A stretch of 45,760 nt of DNA from Candidatus Hydrogenedentota bacterium (GCA_012730045.1 JAAYBR010000069.1:1-45760), one strand, 5' to 3'. Positions 2,844 to 26,122 are shown, counted from the stretch's first letter. Numbers and translations: made by a program. Notes: a model not told the origin generated them from the sequence alone.

Positions 2844-4913
2844 ATGTTCACAGTGAGGGAGCGGTTCCGGTTGTCGGAGAGTTTTCTGGACCAGTTCAAG
2901 GGGCGGCAGCCGGACTGGGGTCCCCTGGGGTACATCACCTTCAAGCGCACCTACGCGCGCACGGTCAACGACGGCACCGGGCGGACGGAGGAGTTCTGGG
3001 AGACCCTGCGCCGGGTGATCGAGGGGTGCTACACGATCCAGCTGAACCACTGCGCGAGCCTCAAGCTGCCGTGGAAACCGGAGAAGGCCCAGCGCTCCGC
3101 CCAGGAGATGTTCCGCCTGATGTGGGACTTCCGCTTCCTCCCGCCGGGCCGCGGCCTGTGGATGATGGGGTCGGACTACATCTACCAGCGCGGCTCCGCC
3201 GCCCTGAACAACTGCGCCTTCGTCTCCACCGACGAGATCGACACGGACTTCGCCGAGCCCTTCTGCTTCCTCATGGACCTGTCCATGCTGGGCACGGGCG
3301 TGGCCTTCGACACGAAGGGCGCGGGGCTGGTCACGATCCAGGCGCCCCAGCAGGGCGAGTACACGCATGTGGTCGAGGACTCCAAGGAGGGGTGGACGGA
3401 CCTCGTGCGCGTGGTGCTCAACGCCTACGTGGGCAAGGCGCGCCGTCCCGCGCACATAGACTACGGCAAGATCCGCCCCCTGGGCGCGCCCATCACCACC
3501 TTCGGCGGCATCGCGCCGGGGCCGGGCCCGCTGATGGAGTGCGTGAAGAACATAGACCTGATCCTGGCGCCCCGGGCGGGGAACATCATCTCCTCCACGG
3601 ACATCACGGACCTGATGAACGTGATCGGGAAGTGCGTGGTCTCCGGCGGCGTGCGGCGCACGGCGGAGCTCGCGCTGGGCGACCCGGACGACACGGAGTA
3701 CCTCCAGCTCAAGGACCCCACCCTGCACAAGGACGCGATGATGGCCTGGCGGTGGGCGTCCAACAACAGCGTCATCGCCAAAGTCGGCATGAACTACTGC
3801 GCCACGGGCACGCAGACGGCGAAGAACGGCGAGCCGGGCTATTTCTGGCTGGAGAACGCGCGGGCCTACGGCCGCCTGAAGGACGGGGCGAACTATGTGG
3901 ACGCGAAGGTGGCGGGGACCAACCCCTGCGCCGAGCAGAGCCTGGAGTCCTACGAGATCTGCAACCTTGTGGAGACCTTCCCGTCGCGCCACGCGACCCT
4001 GGACGAGTACAAGCGCACGCTGAAGTTCGCCTATCTCTACGCGAAGACCGTCACCCTGATCCCCACGCACAACGAGCGCACGAACGCCATCATGCTGCGC
4101 AACCGGCGCATCGGCCTGTCGCAGTCCGGCATCGTGGAGAGCTTCCAGCGCCACGGCCGCCGCGAGCACTTCCGCTGGTGCGACGAGGGCTACCAGTACA
4201 TCGGCAAGCTGGACCGCATCTACTCCCAGTGGCTGTGCGTGCCCGAAAGCATCAAGAAGACCAGCATCAAGCCCAGCGGCACCGTGTCGCTCCTGCCGGG
4301 CGTCACGCCGGGCATCCACTACGCCCACTCGGAGTACTACTACCGGACCATCCGCATTGACAAGACCAGCCCGCTCGTCGAGCCCCTGAAGCGCGCGGGA
4401 TACCGCATCGAGGACTCGGCCTACGGGGACAACACCCACGTCGTCTACTTCCCCGTCCACGAGAAGTTCTTCGACCGGAGCAAGACGGGCGTCTCCGTGT
4501 GGGAGCAGGTGGAGAACGTGGCGCAGATGCAGTTCTACTGGGCGGACAACCAGGTGAGCGCCACCATCACCTTCACGCCCGACGAGGCGGAGGACATCCC
4601 GGAGATCCTGGAGCTGAACGAGACGCGCCTGAAGTCCATCAGCTTCCTCCCCCTCGTGGAGCACAACTACGTGCAGGCGCCCTACCAGGAGATCTCGAAG
4701 GAGGTCTACGAGCAGGCCAAGGCGAAGCTCGGCCCCCTCAACTTCGAGATGGTCAACACGGACGAGGCGCAGGACCTCTACTGCGACGGCGACAAATGCA
4801 TGGTGGACCTCCAGCCGCGCCTGCCGGAGCAGCAGGAGGTGCCGTTCCCCGAGGAGCAGCCGGAGGAGTCGCCCGCCGCTCAGGGCGACGAGGTCGGCGC
4901 GCCCGCAAACTAA
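2844..4913 (+). CDS. nrdJ: Adenosylcobalamin-dependent (class II) ribonucleoside-triphosphate reductase
   Basis: A class II reductase, which makes deoxynucleotides with a radical generated from adenosylcobalamin and so works with or without oxygen. The 689-residue length and sequence resemble the monomeric Lactobacillus-type enzyme (about 740). Visible landmarks are NNCAF (C124, first redox cysteine), NPCAE (C362, the thiyl-radical cysteine, with E364), C373 in the following YEIC (second redox cysteine), and a C-terminal CDGDKC pair (647-652) that relays electrons from thioredoxin. No intein is present. Start ATG 2844 has AGGAGA at 2831-2836. The last 35 residues are an acidic, proline-rich tail. 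Upstream NrdR boxes suggest repression when dNTPs are sufficient. Confidence 0.93.
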   Translation: MFTVRERFRLSESFLDQFKGRQPDWGPLGYITFKRTYARTVNDGTGRTEEFWETLRRVIEGCYTIQLNHCASLKLPWKPEKAQRSAQEMFRLMWDFRFLPPGRGLWMMGSDYIYQRGSAALNNCAFVSTDEIDTDFAEPFCFLMDLSMLGTGVAFDTKGAGLVTIQAPQQGEYTHVVEDSKEGWTDLVRVVLNAYVGKARRPAHIDYGKIRPLGAPITTFGGIAPGPGPLMECVKNIDLILAPRAGNIISSTDITDLMNVIGKCVVSGGVRRTAELALGDPDDTEYLQLKDPTLHKDAMMAWRWASNNSVIAKVGMNYCATGTQTAKNGEPGYFWLENARAYGRLKDGANYVDAKVAGTNPCAEQSLESYEICNLVETFPSRHATLDEYKRTLKFAYLYAKTVTLIPTHNERTNAIMLRNRRIGLSQSGIVESFQRHGRREHFRWCDEGYQYIGKLDRIYSQWLCVPESIKKTSIKPSGTVSLLPGVTPGIHYAHSEYYYRTIRIDKTSPLVEPLKRAGYRIEDSAYGDNTHVVYFPVHEKFFDRSKTGVSVWEQVENVAQMQFYWADNQVSATITFTPDEAEDIPEILELNETRLKSISFLPLVEHNYVQAPYQEISKEVYEQAKAKLGPLNFEMVNTDEAQDLYCDGDKCMVDLQPRLPEQQEVPFPEEQPEESPAAQGDEVGAPAN

Positions 4914-4941
4914 ACCGCTCATACGCCCACATCCATACCAC

Positions 4942-4980
4942 GGGTCTCCGGAGTTCCTCTCTCCGGGGGCCCACATTTTT
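4942..4980 (+). terminator. Rho-independent terminator after nrdJ
   Basis: A 12-bp stem (4942-4953 with 4961-4972, two G-U pairs in RNA) with a 7-base loop is followed by ACA and five Ts at 4976-4980. It begins 28 bp after the nrdJ stop codon. Confidence 0.65.
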
Positions 4981-5053
4981 CAGGGGAGGCGGGAAGGAAG
5001 GCGCGTCAACGGCCCGCAGGGGCTTCGCTGGGGAACTTCAACGGTGGCACGCC

Positions 5054-6058
5054 CTACCCGTACCACGGGCGCTGGCGCTCCCTGGCGGCGGCCAGCGCGT
5101 CAATGGCAATGTTGACGTCCTCCACGATCTGGAAGTCGAAGATGCCGACGCACAGGAAATCGGCGCCGTTCTGGAAGGCGAAGTTGAAGCCGTCGCGCGG
5201 ATGGATCGCCCCGGCGGCCAGCACCTTGAAGGCGATCCACGGCGCCTTCACCTTTCCCATGACCTCCTGCGTCTGGTCGGGGAAAAGGTCAAACATGTTG
5301 TCGTGCCAGTCGTTGTGCCCCGGCTGGGGGTGCCCGTCCACGGTGAACTCGCGCCGGTTCTCGCGCGGGGTGGCGGACCAGTAGTTCTCGTGGTGGAAGG
5401 TCTTGACGTAGTAGTCCGGCACGATGCCCGCCGCCTCGCAGGCCATGGGCACCTGCACGGAGTGCGCGCCAATCCCCGCCGGGTACCCCTGCTTTCGGAT
5501 GTGCTCAATGGCCGCCGCGATCACGTCCAGCCGGTTCGTCCGGGTCAGCCGGTCGCCCACGGCGCCGTTGATGTACATGGTGGTGAACCCGTTGTCTATG
5601 GCGAGGTCAATGTCCCCCGTGACGTCGTCGGGCTTCGGATAGGTCTGGCAGATGGTCTGGATCTTCCCGCCGTTCTCGCGGTACTTCCGGTAGAGGTCCG
5701 CCTGCGCGTTGATGACGCACATGGTGTCAATGCCCGCGGCCTCGGCCATGTGCAGCGTCTCGAACACCTTCGGGTCCGTGTGGTAGGCCTTCAGCAGGTC
5801 GGGCACGTAGATCAGGTCGCGCGAATGCGCCCACCCGCCGATCAGGTTGTTCCCGATGATGATCCGGCTCAGGGTCATGGAGCCGATCTTCCCCTTCGGC
5901 AGCTCCCCCTTCAATTTGTCCAGCCCCGCCGCCTCCCGGTACTTCTGGGTCGCCCCCGACACCCCGTCCACCTTCGCCTCCTCCCCGTACGCCCCCGCAG
6001 CCGCCGCCACCGGCCCCGCCGCCGCGATTTTCAGAAAGTCCCGACGTGATGATTCCAT
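5054..6058 (-). CDS. Tat-exported protein, probable TIM-barrel fold, function unknown
   Basis: The 334-residue product starts with a twin-arginine signal, MESSRRDFLKIAAAG, followed by an Ala-rich hydrophobic stretch, so it is probably exported folded, perhaps with a cofactor. The rest alternates beta-like segments (SRIIIGNN, IDTMCVIN, FTTMYING, WIAFKVLAAGAI) with helices, as in a TIM barrel of the aldo/keto-reductase or xylose-isomerase-like type. Such proteins are frequent in planctomycete-like genomes. The start is ATG at 6058 with AAGGAAAGG upstream; a 44-codon longer frame begins inside a repeat and lacks sense. It is transcribed towards the nrdJ terminator and stands alone. Confidence 0.7.
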   Translation of the reverse strand: MESSRRDFLKIAAAGPVAAAAGAYGEEAKVDGVSGATQKYREAAGLDKLKGELPKGKIGSMTLSRIIIGNNLIGGWAHSRDLIYVPDLLKAYHTDPKVFETLHMAEAAGIDTMCVINAQADLYRKYRENGGKIQTICQTYPKPDDVTGDIDLAIDNGFTTMYINGAVGDRLTRTNRLDVIAAAIEHIRKQGYPAGIGAHSVQVPMACEAAGIVPDYYVKTFHHENYWSATPRENRREFTVDGHPQPGHNDWHDNMFDLFPDQTQEVMGKVKAPWIAFKVLAAGAIHPRDGFNFAFQNGADFLCVGIFDFQIVEDVNIAIDALAAARERQRPWYG

Positions 6059-6102
6059 GCAGCGCGCCTTTCCTTGGGCCGTGTCCGGCCGACGGCATTG
6101 TG

Positions 6103-6462
6103 CGGCAATCCCCGCGCGGCGGTCAACTTGGGCGGGGCACTGCCCCGCGCTGCTTGATCGCACAGGTGCGGACCGGAGCATTGGTGGCACGAGGTTGCTT
6201 CAGTCGCTGGCGCTCCTTCGCAATGACCGGGGAGGCGGCAGCCTTGTAGTGAGACGCCGTCCCCCACGTCATGACGAGCAACGCGAAGCCATCTCGCGCC
6301 CGCCACACCTTCACCCCACCCCGTCATGGCGAGCGAAGCGAAGCCATCTCGTTCCCGCCGCACCTTTGCCCACCCCGTCATGGCGAGCGAAGCGAAGCCA
6401 TATAGTGCCCGCCAAATCTCTGGGTGACGCGGCAATCCCCGCGCGGCGGTCAACTTGGGCGG
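6103..6462. repeat. Nest of dispersed repeats bounded by a 33-bp direct repeat
   Basis: The gap 6059-6530 holds no gene but several repeats. A perfect 33-bp direct repeat lies at 6103-6135 and 6430-6462. Between them are three tandem 38-bp units at 6267-6304, 6322-6359 and 6376-6413 (period 54-55 bp, core GGCGAGCGAAGCGAAGCCAT) and a related, diverged unit in the opposite direction at about 6183-6230. Such units are known as multi-copy intergenic repeats in many genomes and are often mistranslated as protein. Copies a to c differ at only a few positions, so the expansion looks recent. Confidence 0.75.
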
Positions 6463-20066: not shown

Positions 20067-21032
20067 TCACGCCTCCTTTCCGTCGCCGCCGGCGAGCCGC
20101 TCCGCCACGCGCAGCCGCGCACTCTTCGCGCGGGGATTTTCCCGCGCCTCTTCGGGCCCCGGAACCACGGGCCGCGCAACCGGCAAACGGAACCGCGCCG
20201 GAAACGACGCCCCCCGGCGCCCGTCGCGCAGCAGCTCCACCACCGGCCTCGAGGCCTCCCGAAACAGGGTCTTCACAATCCGGTCCTCGCCCGAGTGGAA
20301 GGTGATGGCCACCACCCGCCCTCCGGGCGCCACCGCCTCCAGCGCCTGCCCCACGCCCGCGCGCAGGGCCGAAAGCTCGTCGTTCACCGCGATGCGCACC
20401 GCCTGAAACACCGTGCGCGTCTCGGCGGGCTCGCCCTTCACAAAGGGCAGCGCCTCGCGCACCGCCGCCGCCAGGTCCTCCGTCGTCTCCATGCGCCCCG
20501 CGCGCGCGCGCGCCAGCACGGCCCGCGCGATCCGGCCGGCGGGCCCGATGTCGCCGTATTCGCGGAGCACCCGGGCCAGTTCCGCCTCCGTGGTCCCCGC
20601 CAGCCAGGACGCCGCGGTGACCGGGGCGGTCGTGTCCATGCGCATGTCCAGCGGCCCCGGCGCCTGAAAGGAGAATCCGCGCCCCGGCGTGTCTATCTGC
20701 ATGCTGGAAACCCCCGCATCAATGAGCACACCGTCCACAGGACCCCAGCCCAGGCCGGACAGCACCTCTTTCAACTCTCCGTAGTTGGCGCGCACCACCC
20801 CGGCGGACCCATGGGGCGCCAGCCGCCGACGCGCCGTCTCCACTGCGGCCGGGTCGCGGTCCAGCGCCAGCAGACGGCCCGTGGTGAGCCGCTCCGCAAT
20901 GGCCGCGGAATGCCCCCCGGCCCCCGCCGTGCAGTCCACATACCGGCCGTCCGGCCGCACCGCCAGCCACTCCAGCGCCTCCCGCAGCATCACGGGGACA
21001 TGAAGCGCGGCGCCGCCGTTCGTGTCGGCCAT
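20067..21032 (-). CDS. rsmH: 16S rRNA m4C1402 methyltransferase RsmH (MraW)
   Basis: RsmH methylates N4 of C1402 in the 16S rRNA P site using SAM, and is a standard dcw-cluster gene. The 321-residue protein has HVPVMLREAL at the N-terminus, the SAM loop DCTAGAGGHSAAI, LIDAGVSSMQIDTPGRGFSF and the closing ITFHSGEDRIVK motif, all typical. Start ATG 21032 has GGAGGGACC just upstream, 20 bp after the STAS gene. Four bases separate its stop from the ftsL start. Confidence 0.95.
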   Translation of the reverse strand: MADTNGGAALHVPVMLREALEWLAVRPDGRYVDCTAGAGGHSAAIAERLTTGRLLALDRDPAAVETARRRLAPHGSAGVVRANYGELKEVLSGLGWGPVDGVLIDAGVSSMQIDTPGRGFSFQAPGPLDMRMDTTAPVTAASWLAGTTEAELARVLREYGDIGPAGRIARAVLARARAGRMETTEDLAAAVREALPFVKGEPAETRTVFQAVRIAVNDELSALRAGVGQALEAVAPGGRVVAITFHSGEDRIVKTLFREASRPVVELLRDGRRGASFPARFRLPVARPVVPGPEEARENPRAKSARLRVAERLAGGDGKEA

Positions 21033-21052
21033 GGTCCCTCCGGAACGGGTGC

Positions 21053-21406
21053 TCAGGCCGCCACGGGGGCGGAAAACCCGGTGACCGCCTGCACCTCGGT
21101 CTCGTGGCAGTCAAACTGGTGCGTCAGCGCCATCTGCCGGAGCAGCATGCGCATGTACAGGCTCAGGCAGGCCAGCTTAAGGTCGCCCTTCGCCGCCCGG
21201 AACTGGCCAAGCCGCTCCAGAATCACCGCCATGCTCAGATAACTCACAAACCCCACCCCCGCCAGATTCAGCACCACCTTGTGGCGCCCGTCGCGCAGGC
21301 ACCCGGAAAGCGCCAGCCGCAGCACGGCAACGCCCTCCTCGTCAATCACGCCGCGAAGACGCAGCACCGTCACAGCCCCGTTCTCCAGCCGCTCCACGTT
21401 CAGCAT
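21053..21406 (-). CDS. STAS-domain protein (anti-sigma-antagonist-like) inside the dcw operon
   Basis: A 117-residue protein made of a single STAS domain, the fold of SpoIIAA/RsbV anti-sigma-factor antagonists and the MlaB lipid-transport subunit. Features are VTVLRLRGVIDEEGV (first strands), VVLNLAGVGFVSYLSMAVI (the central strand and loop), then two helices. In classical antagonists the loop has DSSG or SSAG with a phosphorylated serine; here the loop reads SYLSMAV and the phospho-acceptor position seems to be Met, so control by a kinase of the usual kind is doubtful. Its start overlaps the end of mraZ by 7 bp with AAGGGAG upstream, so it is co-translated with the dcw genes. No anti-sigma kinase is nearby. 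Confidence 0.82.
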   Translation of the reverse strand: MLNVERLENGAVTVLRLRGVIDEEGVAVLRLALSGCLRDGRHKVVLNLAGVGFVSYLSMAVILERLGQFRAAKGDLKLACLSLYMRMLLRQMALTHQFDCHETEVQAVTGFSAPVAA

Positions 21407-21885
21407 CCCGTGCTCCCTTCATCCGTTGTCAGCCCGCAGTCCCTCATCCGGCGGCCGAACAGCCCGGCCGCCACAGCCTTGTAGGTGTCTTTCTGGCCCT
21501 GCTGGTATGCCTTCCATCCCGCCACGCTCCACAGTTCGAGCGTCTCGCCGACTCCGATCAGGATCGCCTCGCGCAGGAAGCCCGCGTAGTCCTTCAGCGG
21601 CGCGCCGACCAGCAACCGGCCCTGGGCGTCAAGCTGCGTGAACGACGCGGCCCCAAAGTGGCGCAGGAACGCCAGCACCTCGGGGTCCATGCCCCCGTCC
21701 TTCAGGCGGCCCATCACCTCGCGGTACTTTGGCTCGGGATAGACAAAGAGCGCATCGTCAAATCCGCGGGTGACCGCCCAGGACAAATCCCCCCGGTCCT
21801 GCATGAGCTTGCGGATGTCCATGGGCACGGGAAACCTTCCGCGCTCGTCCAAAGACACGTGATATTCGCCGAAGTAGGTGCTCAT
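21400..21885 (-). CDS. mraZ: Transcriptional regulator MraZ
   Basis: MraZ is the AbrB-like ring-forming regulator at the head of most dcw operons. The 161-residue protein has the two SpoVT/AbrB-type repeats: GEYHVSLDERGRFPVP (6-21) and FTQLDAQGRLLVGAPLKDYAG in the second half, both with the D-x-x-GR signature. It is slightly longer than the usual 140-150 residues, with a C-terminal Cys/Gly/Thr-rich tail. Start ATG 21885 is preceded by a poor Shine-Dalgarno and a leader of about 47 nucleotides. It probably represses its own operon. Confidence 0.93.
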   Translation of the reverse strand: MSTYFGEYHVSLDERGRFPVPMDIRKLMQDRGDLSWAVTRGFDDALFVYPEPKYREVMGRLKDGGMDPEVLAFLRHFGAASFTQLDAQGRLLVGAPLKDYAGFLREAILIGVGETLELWSVAGWKAYQQGQKDTYKAVAAGLFGRRMRDCGLTTDEGSTGC

Positions 21886-22174: not shown

Positions 22175-22858
22175 TTACTGTGCGGGCGGTGTGTCCGTTG
22201 GCGCGGGGGCCTCCGCGCCGGGAGTCTCCGGCGGCGTGTAGCCGGGCAGGAGTTCCTCCTCATCGCCGTCGCGGAGCTTGCGGAAACCCTCCTGGAGGTG
22301 CACCCGGTGGTCTTCGCCGACCACCTTGTCCGTCTGCTCCTCGTCCTTGACGGCCTCGTTCCAGCGGGCTTCCTCGATGGTGTAGAAGAACATCTGCTTG
22401 GGCCCCTCGTGCAGGCGGAGGCGGCCGCCGATGAGCACGGGCTCGTTGACCATGTCGGCCGGCTTGGCGAGCTTGACCTCGATGATGTCGCGCATGGGGG
22501 GCGCCTCGCAGAAATAGCAGGTCATGGGCACGGGCAGGAGCATGAACTCGGTGACGTTCTTGAACTGGTCAATGGGGCTCATGAACCCGCAGATGTTGAC
22601 GAGGCGGCCGTCCTTTTTCTTGAGGGTCTCGGGGAAACCCGCGCCGGTGCTGCGCTTTCCCGTGACGCTGCGCAGCTCCTCCCAGTCCACAACCTCCACG
22701 CCGTCGCTGCGGTGCTTCTCCTCGAAGGCCGCGCGCATCTGCTCGTAGCGCTCGCGCAGGGCGTCGCGGCGGGTGTAGCCGTTGACCAGGACGATGCCCG
22801 CGAGCACGGCGATCACGCCGACCAGGGTCAGGAGGTCGCGTTTGGCTTTGCGTCTCAT
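22175..22858 (-). CDS. DUF3299-like membrane-anchored protein
   Basis: A 227-residue protein with one N-terminal membrane segment (9-27) and an exported domain that resembles DUF3299: WEELRS, LVNICGFMSPID, then EFMLLPVPMTCYFCEAPPMRDIIEV with a CYFC cysteine pair (114-117). The C-terminus is acidic and Pro-rich. DUF3299 proteins are found beside MacB-like ABC genes; as I recall, one belongs to the zinc-regulated Zrg system of Vibrio cholerae. Here it is the last gene of a three-gene operon, 30 bp after the permease, with AGGAAG upstream of its ATG. A metal-binding role for CYFC is inference. Confidence 0.68.
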   Translation of the reverse strand: MRRKAKRDLLTLVGVIAVLAGIVLVNGYTRRDALRERYEQMRAAFEEKHRSDGVEVVDWEELRSVTGKRSTGAGFPETLKKKDGRLVNICGFMSPIDQFKNVTEFMLLPVPMTCYFCEAPPMRDIIEVKLAKPADMVNEPVLIGGRLRLHEGPKQMFFYTIEEARWNEAVKDEEQTDKVVGEDHRVHLQEGFRKLRDGDEEELLPGYTPPETPGAEAPAPTDTPPAQ

Positions 22859-22888
22859 GCGCTTCCTTTCTTGTGCGGGGCGCGCGGC

Positions 22889-24163
22889 CTAGAGTTCCGC
22901 GAGGTCGCGCGCGATGTCGGTCCGGTAGGCCTGCCACGCGGGGAGGATGCCCGCCACCAGGCCCATGAGCAGGACGGCGGAGTAGGCGGTGATGATATCC
23001 GGCCCCAGGGCCACGGCGGAGACGTGGAACCCGAGCTTCGCCACCAGGTACATGCCCAGCCCGTAGCATACCACGGCGCCGAGGAGCCATCCCACCCCGA
23101 TGCCCAGCACGGTGACCCAGAAGGCCTCGATGAGGACGGCGCCGAAGATCTCGCCGCGCGTGGCGCCCAGGGCGCGCATGACGGCCAGGTCGCGCCTGCG
23201 CTGCAGGATCGCCATGTACAGGCCAATGAGGATGGACATGGAGGAGATGACGACCACCAGGTAGCCGATGGCCAGCAACACCGCCTTTGCCGTGCCCAGA
23301 AGCTGCTCGTACAGCTTCTGAATCTCGTTCACCGGCACCGCCGCCATAACGTTGTACTGCTTGTTGATCCTGTCCTTGTACTCGAAGCGCAGGGCGGGCG
23401 ACGCCAGCTTGACCAGGCCCGCGGTGATCTCCGCATCCGCCCCCCCATGATCATGGGCATGGTCATGGTCATGGTCGCCCTCCCCGTCGTGCTCGTGCCC
23501 GTGCTCTTCCTCCGCCTCCGCGTCGCCGTGGTCGTGGGCGTCCCACACGGACTCCATGCTGCAGAAAATGGCCCGGTCATTGGGGGTACCGGAGCGGCGC
23601 ATCACGCCGACCACGGTGTAGGGCTTGTCCTCATGGGCGTGCGCCCCCGGCATGTCCACAAACCCGTGGGTGCTGATGAACGACGACCCGACCCGGAGCC
23701 CCGTGTCCTGCGCCACCGCCGCGCCGATGACCGCCTCGTAGGCCTTGCCGAAATACACGCCCTCCTCCAGCTCGTAGGGACGCCGGTCGCCCCAGGTGAA
23801 GTCCATCAGCGCGCGGTCCGTGCCGATGATCCGGTATCCCTTGAACGTGTCGCCCATGCCCAGGGGGAACGCGGCCTCCACGTCCTCCAGCTTCGCGATC
23901 TCCTCGAAGTCCGCGCGGCTCATGTTGCCCGTGGGCGCGTCGAGAAAGTACACCGTGCTGAGCACGAGCTGCAGGGGGTTGCCCTTGGCCCCGACGACCA
24001 GGTCGAAGGCCTGCCCCTCCTCCTCGAAGCGCTTCTGCGTCTGCTCGCGCAGCGTCAGCACCGCGGAGATCAGGGCCACGCCGAGGGCCACCGAAATGAT
24101 GGTCATGGCCGTGGTCAGTTTCCGGTTCCACAGGTAGTTCCACGCGACATGCCACAGGCTCAT
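22889..24163 (-). CDS. FtsX/MacB-type ABC permease with histidine-rich extracytoplasmic segment
   Basis: A 424-residue permease with one N-terminal membrane segment (about 18-38), a large extracytoplasmic MacB-like domain (about 40-285) and three C-terminal segments (about 293-320, 342-375, 390-412). ALGATRGEIF at 331-340 is the coupling-helix region of the FtsX family. Residues 210-239 contain ten histidines alternating with Asp, Glu and Gly, as in zinc- or nickel-binding stretches; this lies outside the membrane. It overlaps the ATPase gene by 4 bp (ATGA). A longer frame upstream to 24271 lies in the ATPase gene and is not used. Metal import or handling is the best guess. Confidence 0.85.
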   Translation of the reverse strand: MSLWHVAWNYLWNRKLTTAMTIISVALGVALISAVLTLREQTQKRFEEEGQAFDLVVGAKGNPLQLVLSTVYFLDAPTGNMSRADFEEIAKLEDVEAAFPLGMGDTFKGYRIIGTDRALMDFTWGDRRPYELEEGVYFGKAYEAVIGAAVAQDTGLRVGSSFISTHGFVDMPGAHAHEDKPYTVVGVMRRSGTPNDRAIFCSMESVWDAHDHGDAEAEEEHGHEHDGEGDHDHDHAHDHGGADAEITAGLVKLASPALRFEYKDRINKQYNVMAAVPVNEIQKLYEQLLGTAKAVLLAIGYLVVVISSMSILIGLYMAILQRRRDLAVMRALGATRGEIFGAVLIEAFWVTVLGIGVGWLLGAVVCYGLGMYLVAKLGFHVSAVALGPDIITAYSAVLLMGLVAGILPAWQAYRTDIARDLAEL

Positions 24164-24822
24164 GACACCGTCTCCTTCACGAGGTCCGTGCAGTCGTGCA
24201 TCTGCGGGAGCCGCTCGGCGATGGCGCGGTCGTGCGTCACCAGCAGCAGGGTCACGCCCTCCTCTGCGCACAGCTCAAGCAGCAGCGCCATGACCGACTC
24301 CGCCGTCTTCGGGTCCAGGCTGCCCGTCGGCTCATCCGCAACAATCAGCTTCGGCCGGTTCACCAGCGCCCGCGCGATGGCCACCCGCTGCCGCTCGCCC
24401 ACGCTGAGCGTGCCCGGGCGGCTGTGAAGCCTGTGCCCCAGGCGCACGCGCTCCAGCATGGCCGTCGCCCGCGTCTTCCACTCCTTCTCCGGCACCACAT
24501 CGGCGAAACGCATGCCCAGCACCACGTTCTGCAGCGTCGTGAACGGCGCCAGCAGGTTGAAGGTCTGAAAAATGAACCCGTACCGCTCCCCGCGGAACGC
24601 GTCCAGCCGGCTGCCCGACAGCCCCGTGATGTCCACCCCGTCCACCCGTATCTGCCCCCCGTGCGGGCGCAACAGCCCCGAAATCAGGTTGAGCATCGTG
24701 GATTTGCCGCAGCCGCTCGGGCCCCACAGGGCCACCCGGTCGCCGGGCGCCGCGTGGAACGCGTCGCACTGGAACGCAACGCCCGGCCCCAGCGTCCGCC
24801 GCACGCCTTCCATTGTCACCAT
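24160..24822 (-). CDS. ABC transporter ATP-binding protein, LolD/MacB type
   Basis: A 220-residue ATPase with Walker A GPSGCGKST (34-42), Q-loop IFQTFNLL, signature LSVGERQRVAIARAL (LSVGE in place of LSGGQ), Walker B LIVADEPTGSLD and the switch histidine in LLVTHD. Sequence type and pairing with a FtsX-like permease place it in the LolD/MacB group, whose members couple ATP use to work in the periplasm. ATG 24822 has GGAGAT upstream. It is the first gene of the operon, controlled from the dyad-bearing promoter at 24919-24940. Confidence 0.9.
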   Translation of the reverse strand: MVTMEGVRRTLGPGVAFQCDAFHAAPGDRVALWGPSGCGKSTMLNLISGLLRPHGGQIRVDGVDITGLSGSRLDAFRGERYGFIFQTFNLLAPFTTLQNVVLGMRFADVVPEKEWKTRATAMLERVRLGHRLHSRPGTLSVGERQRVAIARALVNRPKLIVADEPTGSLDPKTAESVMALLLELCAEEGVTLLLVTHDRAIAERLPQMHDCTDLVKETVS

Positions 24823-24918
24823 GTGCTGATCTCCAGCGTTGCCTCCCCCCAGACAACGCCTTCATGCTACCACGTCATTTCCCCGCCGCGCCCTCTTCGG
24901 GTGGCAGCGGGCCTCTCC

Positions 24919-24940
24919 ACATGATAACCCATTATCATGT
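24919..24940. promoter_or_regulatory. Perfect dyad operator overlapping the promoter of the ABC operon
   Basis: Half-sites ACATGATAA (24919-24927) and TTATCATGT (24932-24940) are perfect reverse complements around CCCA. The core TGATAA/TTATCA resembles Fur-family (Fur, Zur) operators, though the spacing is 4 rather than 3 bases. On the minus strand a -10 TATCAT falls within the dyad, 18 bp after a fair -35 TTGCCT, so a bound repressor would block the ABC operon. The site lies in the divergent gap before 25037 and may also affect that gene. Confidence 0.6.
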
Positions 24941-25036
24941 AGAAAGGCAAAACCGGCCGCGGCGCATTTCCTTTGGACGCCCGGGCCGGATATGATAGGG
25001 GCGTTGGCGGACGGGCGTGGCAGGAGCGCGGGACGC

Positions 25037-26122
25037 ATGCGGGACATGTCGAGAAGAACGGCCCTTGGCGTGATGGCGGGGGGCGCGCTGGCGCTGGGCG
25101 GGCGCGCGCGGGCCGCAGCGGACGCCCCCGCGTTTCAGACGCGGGGGGTGGTGCTATACCCCTTTGACCTGTCCCTGGAGGACTGGCCCGACCGCGCCGC
25201 CGCGGCGGGCCTTACCACCATCGGTCTGCACGCGGGACGGCGGTTGGACGTGCTCGCGGAGTTCGTGCGTTCGGCCCGGGGGGAGCGCTTCCTGTCCCGT
25301 TGCGCCGCTCTCGGGCTGGGGGTGGAGTACGAGGTGCACGCTTTCGGCGACCTGCTGTCCCGCGAATGGTTCGCCTCACCGGACATGGACATGTTCCGCA
25401 TGGACGCCTCGGGGGCGCGCACGCCGGACTTCAACTGCTGCCCCTCCTCGCCCCGGGCGCTGGAGATCATCGCGGAGAAGGCGGTGGCCTTTGGCCGGGT
25501 GCTGAACCCCACGACGGGGCGGTACTACTACTGGCCCGACGACGGGCGGGAGTGGTGCCACTGCCCGAAGTGCGCCGGCCTTTCGGCCACGGACCAGGCG
25601 GTGACGGTGGAGAACGCGATCGCGGCGGCCCTGCGGCGGGAGCTGGACCCCGCGGCCACCCTGAGCCACATTTCCTACAACATGACCCTGCCGCCGCCGA
25701 AAACGGTGCGGCCGCATGAGGGGCTCTTTCTTGAGTTCGCGCCCATCGCCCGCGCCTACGACCACCCCATAGACGACCCGGACGCCCCCCTGTCCGCGAC
25801 CCCGCCGGAACCCTCCTCGCACGCCGGGTATTTGGAGATTTTGGACGCCAACCTGGCGGTGTTCCCCCGCGCCACGGCGCAGGTGCTGGAATACTGGCTG
25901 GACGTTTCCCGCTTCTCCGGCTGGAAGCGCCCCTCCGTGAAAATCCCCTGGAACCCGGAAGTGATGCGCGCCGACGCGGCGGCCTACGCGAAGCGGGGCA
26001 TCCGCCACGTCACCACCTTCGCCACCTGGATAGACGCGGACTATGTGGGCCGTTTCGGCGACCCGCCCCTCGCGGAGTACGCCGCGGCCCTAGGAGGACA
26101 GCCTCATGCCGTGGAAAAGTAA
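25037..26122 (+). CDS. Tat-exported glycoside-hydrolase-like protein (DUF4838-like)
   Basis: A 361-residue protein with a signal that resembles a Tat leader (MSRRTALGVMAGGALALGG). The body looks like a TIM-barrel glycoside-hydrolase-like domain of the DUF4838 kind: TTIGLHAG, LGVEYEVHAFG, FNCCPSSPRALEI, then YYYWPDDGREWCHCPKCAG with a Cys-His-Cys-Cys cluster, SHISYN, LFLEFAPIARAY and the closing FATWIDADY. DUF4838 proteins share the W-x-DxG and CxC-type features. I start it at ATG 25037 because AGGAG stands 10 bases upstream. It overlaps the next gene by 17 bp, forming an operon of three exported proteins. Confidence 0.68.
   Translation: MRDMSRRTALGVMAGGALALGGRARAAADAPAFQTRGVVLYPFDLSLEDWPDRAAAAGLTTIGLHAGRRLDVLAEFVRSARGERFLSRCAALGLGVEYEVHAFGDLLSREWFASPDMDMFRMDASGARTPDFNCCPSSPRALEIIAEKAVAFGRVLNPTTGRYYYWPDDGREWCHCPKCAGLSATDQAVTVENAIAAALRRELDPAATLSHISYNMTLPPPKTVRPHEGLFLEFAPIARAYDHPIDDPDAPLSATPPEPSSHAGYLEILDANLAVFPRATAQVLEYWLDVSRFSGWKRPSVKIPWNPEVMRADAAAYAKRGIRHVTTFATWIDADYVGRFGDPPLAEYAAALGGQPHAVEK

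Follow-up and report, generated by a model that had tools for sequence, protein, structure and literature searches.

Genes and features of the locus

The window analysed here, a stretch of 45,760 nucleotides, comes from the 4.46-Mb genome of a Candidatus Hydrogenedentota bacterium (GCA_012730045.1 JAAYBR010000069.1:1-45760), and the closest relatives of its DNA are Candidatus Hydrogenedentota. On its minus strand, reading from 24822 to 22175, lies a three-gene operon encoding an ABC ATPase, an FtsX/MacB-type permease and a DUF3299 protein, as an earlier note on this DNA had proposed (PF00005, FtsX/MacB_PCD and PF11736, respectively). That note had also stated that the Zrg system of Vibrio cholerae combines ABC subunits with DUF3299, which agrees with the published description (PMC9820375). 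The Zur-regulated zrgABCDE operons of V. cholerae and V. parahaemolyticus encode ZrgA (DUF2796), the MacB-like permease ZrgB, the ATPase ZrgC, ZrgD and the DUF3299 protein ZrgE (PMC9820375, PMC9817125). The features of the locus are as follows.

24160..24822, minus strand: ABC ATPase, ZrgC-like, of the LolD/MacB type, 220 aa (PF00005, 110.7 bits)
22889..24163, minus strand: FtsX/MacB-type permease, ZrgB-like, 424 aa (FtsX 51.9 bits, MacB_PCD 52.4 bits)
23633..23668, minus strand: permease H166 and H177, outside the His-rich loop, whose segment H210 starts (from alignment)
23447..23536, minus strand: His-rich periplasmic loop, permease residues 210-239, with ten His (counted)
22175..22858, minus strand: DUF3299 protein, ZrgE-like, 227 aa (PF11736, 32.3 bits, cut-off 22)
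22508..22519, minus strand: CYFC motif of the DUF3299 protein, residues 114-117, with both Cys (C114 and C117) conserved
24919..24940, no strand: operator dyad ACATGATAAcccaTTATCATGT, a putative Zur box with the conserved core TGATAATnnATTATCA (perfect arms; recurrence of the core)
24921..24950, minus strand: sigma-70-like promoter TTGCCT-18-TATCAT, overlapping the dyad (consensus match only)

The ATPase and permease genes overlap by 4 bp (ATGA), and the DUF3299 gene, whose assignment was borne out by the profile search that the earlier note had suggested, starts 30 bp past the permease gene. With few exceptions, Hydrogenedentota contigs that extend far enough keep the three genes together, and the permease is present in 55 of 68 genomes of the phylum (E<=1e-40). 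LolD is the best named family for the ATPase, which scores 189.9 bits with the LolD model (cut-off 307.75); the permease scores 47 bits with the LolCE equivalog model (cut-off 362). An AlphaFold model of the permease (pLDDT 81.6) matches LolCDE (E=3e-15) and MacB (E=2e-13) in Foldseek. Structure prediction gives the ATPase-permease pair the fold of LolCDE/MacB machines. Neither a MacA-like nor a TolC-like gene was found in the operon or its conserved neighbourhood.

Many Hydrogenedentota carry a second permease copy, a divergent paralogue with approximately 33-40% identity (for example L021:2978-4246). Downstream of the operon, window positions 20067-21885 hold mraZ (21400-21885), a short ORF (21053-21406) and an rsmH-like ORF (20067-21032; family assigned by eye), apparently the start of a cell-wall and division cluster that is unrelated to the operon.

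An operator shared with znuABC

The perfect dyad that had been reported over the promoter is present and is longer than claimed, with perfect arms of 9 bp around a 4-bp centre. The promoter that it overlaps (24950-24921) is the sole promoter-like site in 24700-25200, where shuffled sequences lead one to expect 0.0. In relatives, most of the znu and zrg sites have a TTG at the same spacing, 18 nt away from the TATCA half-site, so the operator would cover the spacer and the -10 element. Taken alone, a perfect dyad of this length is no rarity in 45 kb of sequence; it stands above chance because it recurs, both in its own genome and among 17 genomes of the family.

The recurrence was sought by pattern searches and in targeted genome stretches. 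The full 22-base dyad, with up to 3 mismatches allowed, found only itself, and the shorter core TGATAATnnATTATCA, visible in the promoters of close relatives, was needed. In the window's own genome this core occurs at 3 places with up to 2 mismatches, compared with 0 for the reversed pattern. These places precede the operon described here, a znuA-znuC-znuB operon (G000:C1; ZnuA 193 bits, ABC-3 223 bits) and a gene for a small membrane protein (G000:C62), so that the recurrence before other zinc genes for which the earlier note had asked was found at znuABC. Across the 17 family genomes, where up to 1 mismatch was allowed, there are 19 places for the core and 3 for the reversed pattern. Sixteen of the 19 precede znuA (7), the ATPase gene of this operon (6) or the gene for the small His/Cys membrane protein (3); the other three (G007, G010 and G016:C158) adjoin no zinc-related gene and were counted as chance or unexplained.

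The dyad is present in about half of the family's genomes. None was found upstream of the Bacteroidota operons, and in other Hydrogenedentota families it is absent from most zur-znuA intergenic regions; thus the operator is family-specific. The dyad was also considered as the operator of a divergent DUF4838 gene, an assignment that was rejected since in relatives it accompanies the ATPase gene even where the divergent neighbour is a different one.

A candidate Zur

The genome encodes three Fur-family proteins, and the search for a Zur gene, another check proposed in the earlier note, led to the third of them (G000:C87:12599-13024; PF01475 over cut-off). Its best matches in the PDB are to Streptomyces Zur (3mwm/7vo0), with Fur chains scoring nearly as high; it does not reach the cut-off of the Zur equivalog PRK11639, and the scores of NCBIfam Fur-family models do not distinguish it as Zur. 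In seven other Hydrogenedentota genomes its orthologue lies next to znuABC in divergent orientation, and it shares with these orthologues a GC...GF...H (GCP...H) pattern that its two paralogues do not have. Because of this adjacency and this pattern, the protein is most likely Zur, a judgement drawn from gene neighbourhood and sequence. Clear orthologues occur in 7 of 8 family genomes that have dyad sites and in 3 of 9 that do not (one-sided p=0.036). A PerR or Fur role for this protein was considered and judged unlikely, as it is the other two Fur-family proteins that have peroxide-defence genes beside them. Of these two (G000:C121, on L058, and G000:C143, on L059), one lies by a catalase gene and one by genes for a peroxiredoxin and a ferritin-like protein, and both are likely PerR-type.

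A zinc gene cluster in a relative and a small His/Cys membrane protein

The kinds of genes that lie apart, each under a dyad, in the family of the window's genome stand side by side in another genome, G033, where a single cluster holds zur, znuA-znuC-znuB, the gene for the small His/Cys protein, a gene for a DUF1559 protein, and genes for the ATPase, permease and DUF3299 protein. The permease copy in this zur-znuABC cluster is the divergent paralogue. A gene for a P-type (E1-E2) ATPase with a weak heavy-metal-associated domain directly follows the zur-like gene in G033 (L133:8281-10485).

In the window's own genome, the small membrane protein (G000:C62; L057 about 5800-6350) contains HHHSPCCGDDEEHCP and lies under the same dyad. 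It has a His/Cys motif of the form HHHxxxxC...CP, and orthologues were seen at L063:5906-6214, L070:1157-1480, L075 about 4900-5200 and perhaps L133:4852-5247. Searches of the L063 and L133 copies against Pfam and NCBIfam gave zero matches. The protein is possibly a new member of the zinc regulon and perhaps an analogue of ZrgD. In several genomes, including the G033 cluster, its gene is followed by a DUF1559 prepilin-like gene (PF07596, SBP_bac_10), located as follows.

L133:3793-4710: DUF1559 prepilin-like gene
L057:4863-5801: DUF1559 prepilin-like gene
L063:4853-5872: DUF1559 prepilin-like gene

Histidines of the permease

The earlier note had counted ten permease histidines within residues 210-239, outside the membrane, and there are exactly ten (at 210, 212, 221, 223, 225, 231, 233, 235, 237 and 239), all in the predicted periplasmic domain. 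Given how frequent His is in this protein, at least ten would occur in a given stretch of 30 residues with a chance of 5e-8. Residues 212-241 are predicted to be disordered (pLDDT below 50 in the AlphaFold model). Across Hydrogenedentota relatives with 54-94% identity the loop remains His-rich, with wide variation in length and composition, and it probably binds zinc. One gammaproteobacterial contig (L038:1-200) begins within the repeat that encodes HDHDHDH of a permease loop; His-repeat loops may break assemblies and so hide such operons.

Three histidines, H166 (in an HG pair), H177 and H210, are invariant or nearly so in permeases with and without ZrgA, and are absent from E. coli LolC, LolE and MacB. 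All three fall within the predicted periplasmic domain, where we infer a metal site.

The DUF3299 protein

The DUF3299 protein has a predicted N-terminal membrane anchor. Its AlphaFold model finds 4hsp, which is PA4066, as best PDB match (E=3.1e-5), and profile-profile comparison with proteobacterial ZrgE gives E=4e-8. It carries, as previously noted, a CYFC pair at residues 114-117, and both Cys are invariant in 23 of 23 aligned proteins from Hydrogenedentota and Bacteroidota. DUF3299 proteins linked to ZrgA have GACIHxPPPP, with small variations, at this position. The third gene of Bacteroidota operons (L022:6277-6729 and other loci) encodes a protein with CFFC that matches DUF3299 by profile-profile comparison only (E=2e-9) and not by Pfam; this protein also has a weak match, under the cut-off, to TIGR03943/DUF1980_C.

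ZrgA and the permease loop

No ZrgA (DUF2796, PF10986) was found in the window's own genome, nor any over the cut-off in 68 genomes of the phylum, and none in eleven Bacteroidota and Rhodothermota genomes with a related permease; weak matches under the cut-off in G004 and G005 were not counted. As a positive control, the same profile found ZrgA in G079 at 57 bits. An apparent match in L105 was rejected, as the profile had matched the permease's own His-rich loop.

We compared these permeases with a set of ZrgA-bearing operons (L076, L077, L079 and others from a sample of gammaproteobacterial genomes). Wherever ZrgA lies nearby, in 17 of 17 permeases, the loop segment contains 0-1 His. The 17 Hydrogenedentota permeases, a count that leaves out the divergent second copy in L021, have 2-14, with a CYFC-type DUF3299 wherever this was legible. 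In three gammaproteobacterial systems that have no ZrgA nearby, the loop contains 15-23 His, with a CFFH motif where read, and a Rhizobium system (L080) has 7 and CPFC. The Bacteroidota permeases have 0-16 and CFFC, and some of these systems have neither ZrgA nor a His-rich loop; in a few PPPP-type systems there is no ZrgA in the fetched stretch and the loop is likewise missing. Among the systems examined, loop His and ZrgA are mutually exclusive, and the trend is clear.

In a tree of the permeases, all ZrgA-bearing members form one clade (100/100), so the contrast between ZrgA and loop represents a single evolutionary change, and since the tree shows one split we give it no p-value. When the tree is rooted with LolC/LolE, on long outgroup branches, the ZrgA-bearing clade falls inside lineages that have no ZrgA, tentatively suggesting that ZrgA was added rather than lost. 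The earlier note had supposed that the separate metal-binding protein may be replaced here by the His-rich segment of the permease. A ZrgA-less, His-rich variant is indeed real and systematic, given that ZrgA went undetected in the 68 phylum genomes and that ZrgA-bearing permeases are without the loop whereas ZrgA-less ones mostly have it; the replacement, however, may have run the opposite way. Moreover, the loop need not replace ZrgA at all, if the V. cholerae case is a guide, because that system requires ZrgA but not ZrgA's own His-rich loop (PMC9820375). We found no description of a ZrgA-less Zrg form in the literature, within incomplete coverage.

We tentatively propose, as a history that could well be wrong, that the ZrgA-less form is older and broader, its permease binding zinc through the universal three-His site and a variable loop, together with a Cys-pair DUF3299. 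ZrgA would then have arisen in one proteobacterial clade and assumed the role of the loop; later the permease would have lost the loop and the Cys pair of DUF3299 would have become CIHxPPPP. If this is true, the Vibrio and Pseudomonas systems that have been studied are the derived case.

A probable zinc-starvation system and its alternatives

The earlier note's candidate zinc system is supported by the comparative evidence, which makes the case stronger than first stated. Because its operator is common to znuABC, orthologues of a likely Zur lie by znuABC in related genomes, the G033 cluster unites these genes, and its proteins have Zrg homology and the Zrg-specific His, the operon is read as a zinc-starvation system. 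That it belongs to a zinc-starvation regulon is, from this genomic evidence, very probable, and with equally high confidence it encodes a Zrg-type machine; the reading in full, that Zur represses a Zrg-type zinc-starvation system which has no ZrgA, is probable. With zinc bound, Zur would occupy the TGATAATnnATTATCA dyad that overlaps the promoter and repress the operon, and falling zinc would derepress znuABC, this operon and the small His/Cys membrane protein together; we regard both steps as strong inferences. Relatives of the LolCDE/MacB fold work by mechanotransmission. In the ZrgA-less operon, the disordered His-rich loop, in a periplasmic domain that also has H166/H177/H210, may gather Zn(II) where other systems use ZrgA, and the Cys-x-x-Cys of the membrane-anchored DUF3299 protein may take or give metal beside the permease. 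The most likely net result would be better zinc acquisition in starvation, with zinc moved across the membrane or handed on in the periplasm, and acquisition rather than export is the effect that we somewhat favour.

The LolCDE/MacB fold does not settle the direction of transport, and importer and exporter readings of such systems have both been published. Zrg systems have been read as zinc importers (PMC9820375, PMC9817125), and PA4063-PA4066 of Pseudomonas aeruginosa has been proposed to be a pyochelin-cobalt exporter (PMC11481552). The operon might encode a pump of the MacB type that is induced when zinc is scarce and exports a metallophore or some unwanted metal, for instance cobalt, with the His loop sensing or buffering metal. 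Extruders have this fold, the Pseudomonas homologue has genetic and ICP-MS data that point this way (PMC11481552), and zinc-starvation regulation is equally compatible with it. Nevertheless, genes resembling MacA or TolC are missing from the operon and its surroundings, and the V. cholerae and V. parahaemolyticus mutants indicate zinc acquisition (PMC9820375, PMC9817125), so that we consider an exporter unlikely, albeit the most serious of the alternatives.

Far less probable is a response to iron or to general metal stress through a Fur box. In its favour, the sequence TGATAATnATTATCA is a common Fur box, several papers containing that string concern Fur, and NCBIfam scores, as above, do not mark the regulator as Zur; yet the centre of the dyad is 2 bp and not 1, the dyad precedes znuA in 7 family genomes, and it is the candidate Zur whose orthologues lie by znuABC, whereas the other two Fur-family proteins keep company with catalase or with peroxiredoxin and ferritin-like genes. 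We give even less credence to an ordinary lipoprotein-release or MacB-like transporter. The permease and ATPase do score with the LolCE and LolD models, and the loop's length and composition vary widely, but these scores are far under the Lol cut-offs, the loop stays His-rich at 54-94% identity, H166/H177/H210 are conserved, and the operator is common to the operon and znuABC.

How Zrg works is disputed: it has been viewed as an importer of zinc that uses a novel type of binding protein, or as a MacB-type exporter. The ZrgA-less form cannot rely on zinc delivery by ZrgA and directs attention to the permease (H166, H177 and H210) and DUF3299 as the likely constant core, and the operon offers a way to test how this transporter family operates. 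For an uncultured phylum, the analysis also yields a putative Zur regulon with an unusual 7-2-7 operator, whose third putative member is the small His/Cys membrane protein without a Pfam match.

Comparison with known systems

Like ZrgABCDE, the operon unites a MacB-like permease, an adjacent separate ATPase and DUF3299, and in tblastn its permease aligns with ZrgB-like permeases over 98-100% of the query at approximately 28-30% identity. In V. parahaemolyticus, expression of the zrg operon rises 75- to 206-fold when zinc is deficient (PMC9817125), and in V. cholerae ZrgA is essential while its His-rich loop is not (PMC9820375). Zur-type control appears to be common to both, here suggested by the operator shared with znuABC and the syntenic putative Zur. 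Unlike ZrgABCDE, the window's operon has no detected ZrgA, and ZrgD was not seen in it; its permease has the His-rich loop, and its DUF3299 protein has CYFC in place of the CIHxPPPP of Zrg. It is Zrg-like without one defining feature, ZrgA, and we do not file it as a complete member.

With PA4063-PA4066 the operon shares a homologous permease (L076, 30% identity) and DUF3299 (4hsp being PA4066), whereas the Pseudomonas system has ZrgA (DUF2796) beside the ATPase and one His in the permease loop. The permease fold and ATPase family are also those of LolCDE and MacB, but the window's proteins score far under the Lol/MacB equivalog cut-offs, and LolC, LolE and MacB do not have H166, H177 and H210; in contrast to MacAB-TolC, no MacA-type adaptor accompanies the operon. 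With ZnuABC it shares the operator and presumably the regulator within its own genome, whereas the permease of ZnuABC belongs to a family unrelated to the window's (PF00950), and its binding protein is of cluster A-I (PF01297).
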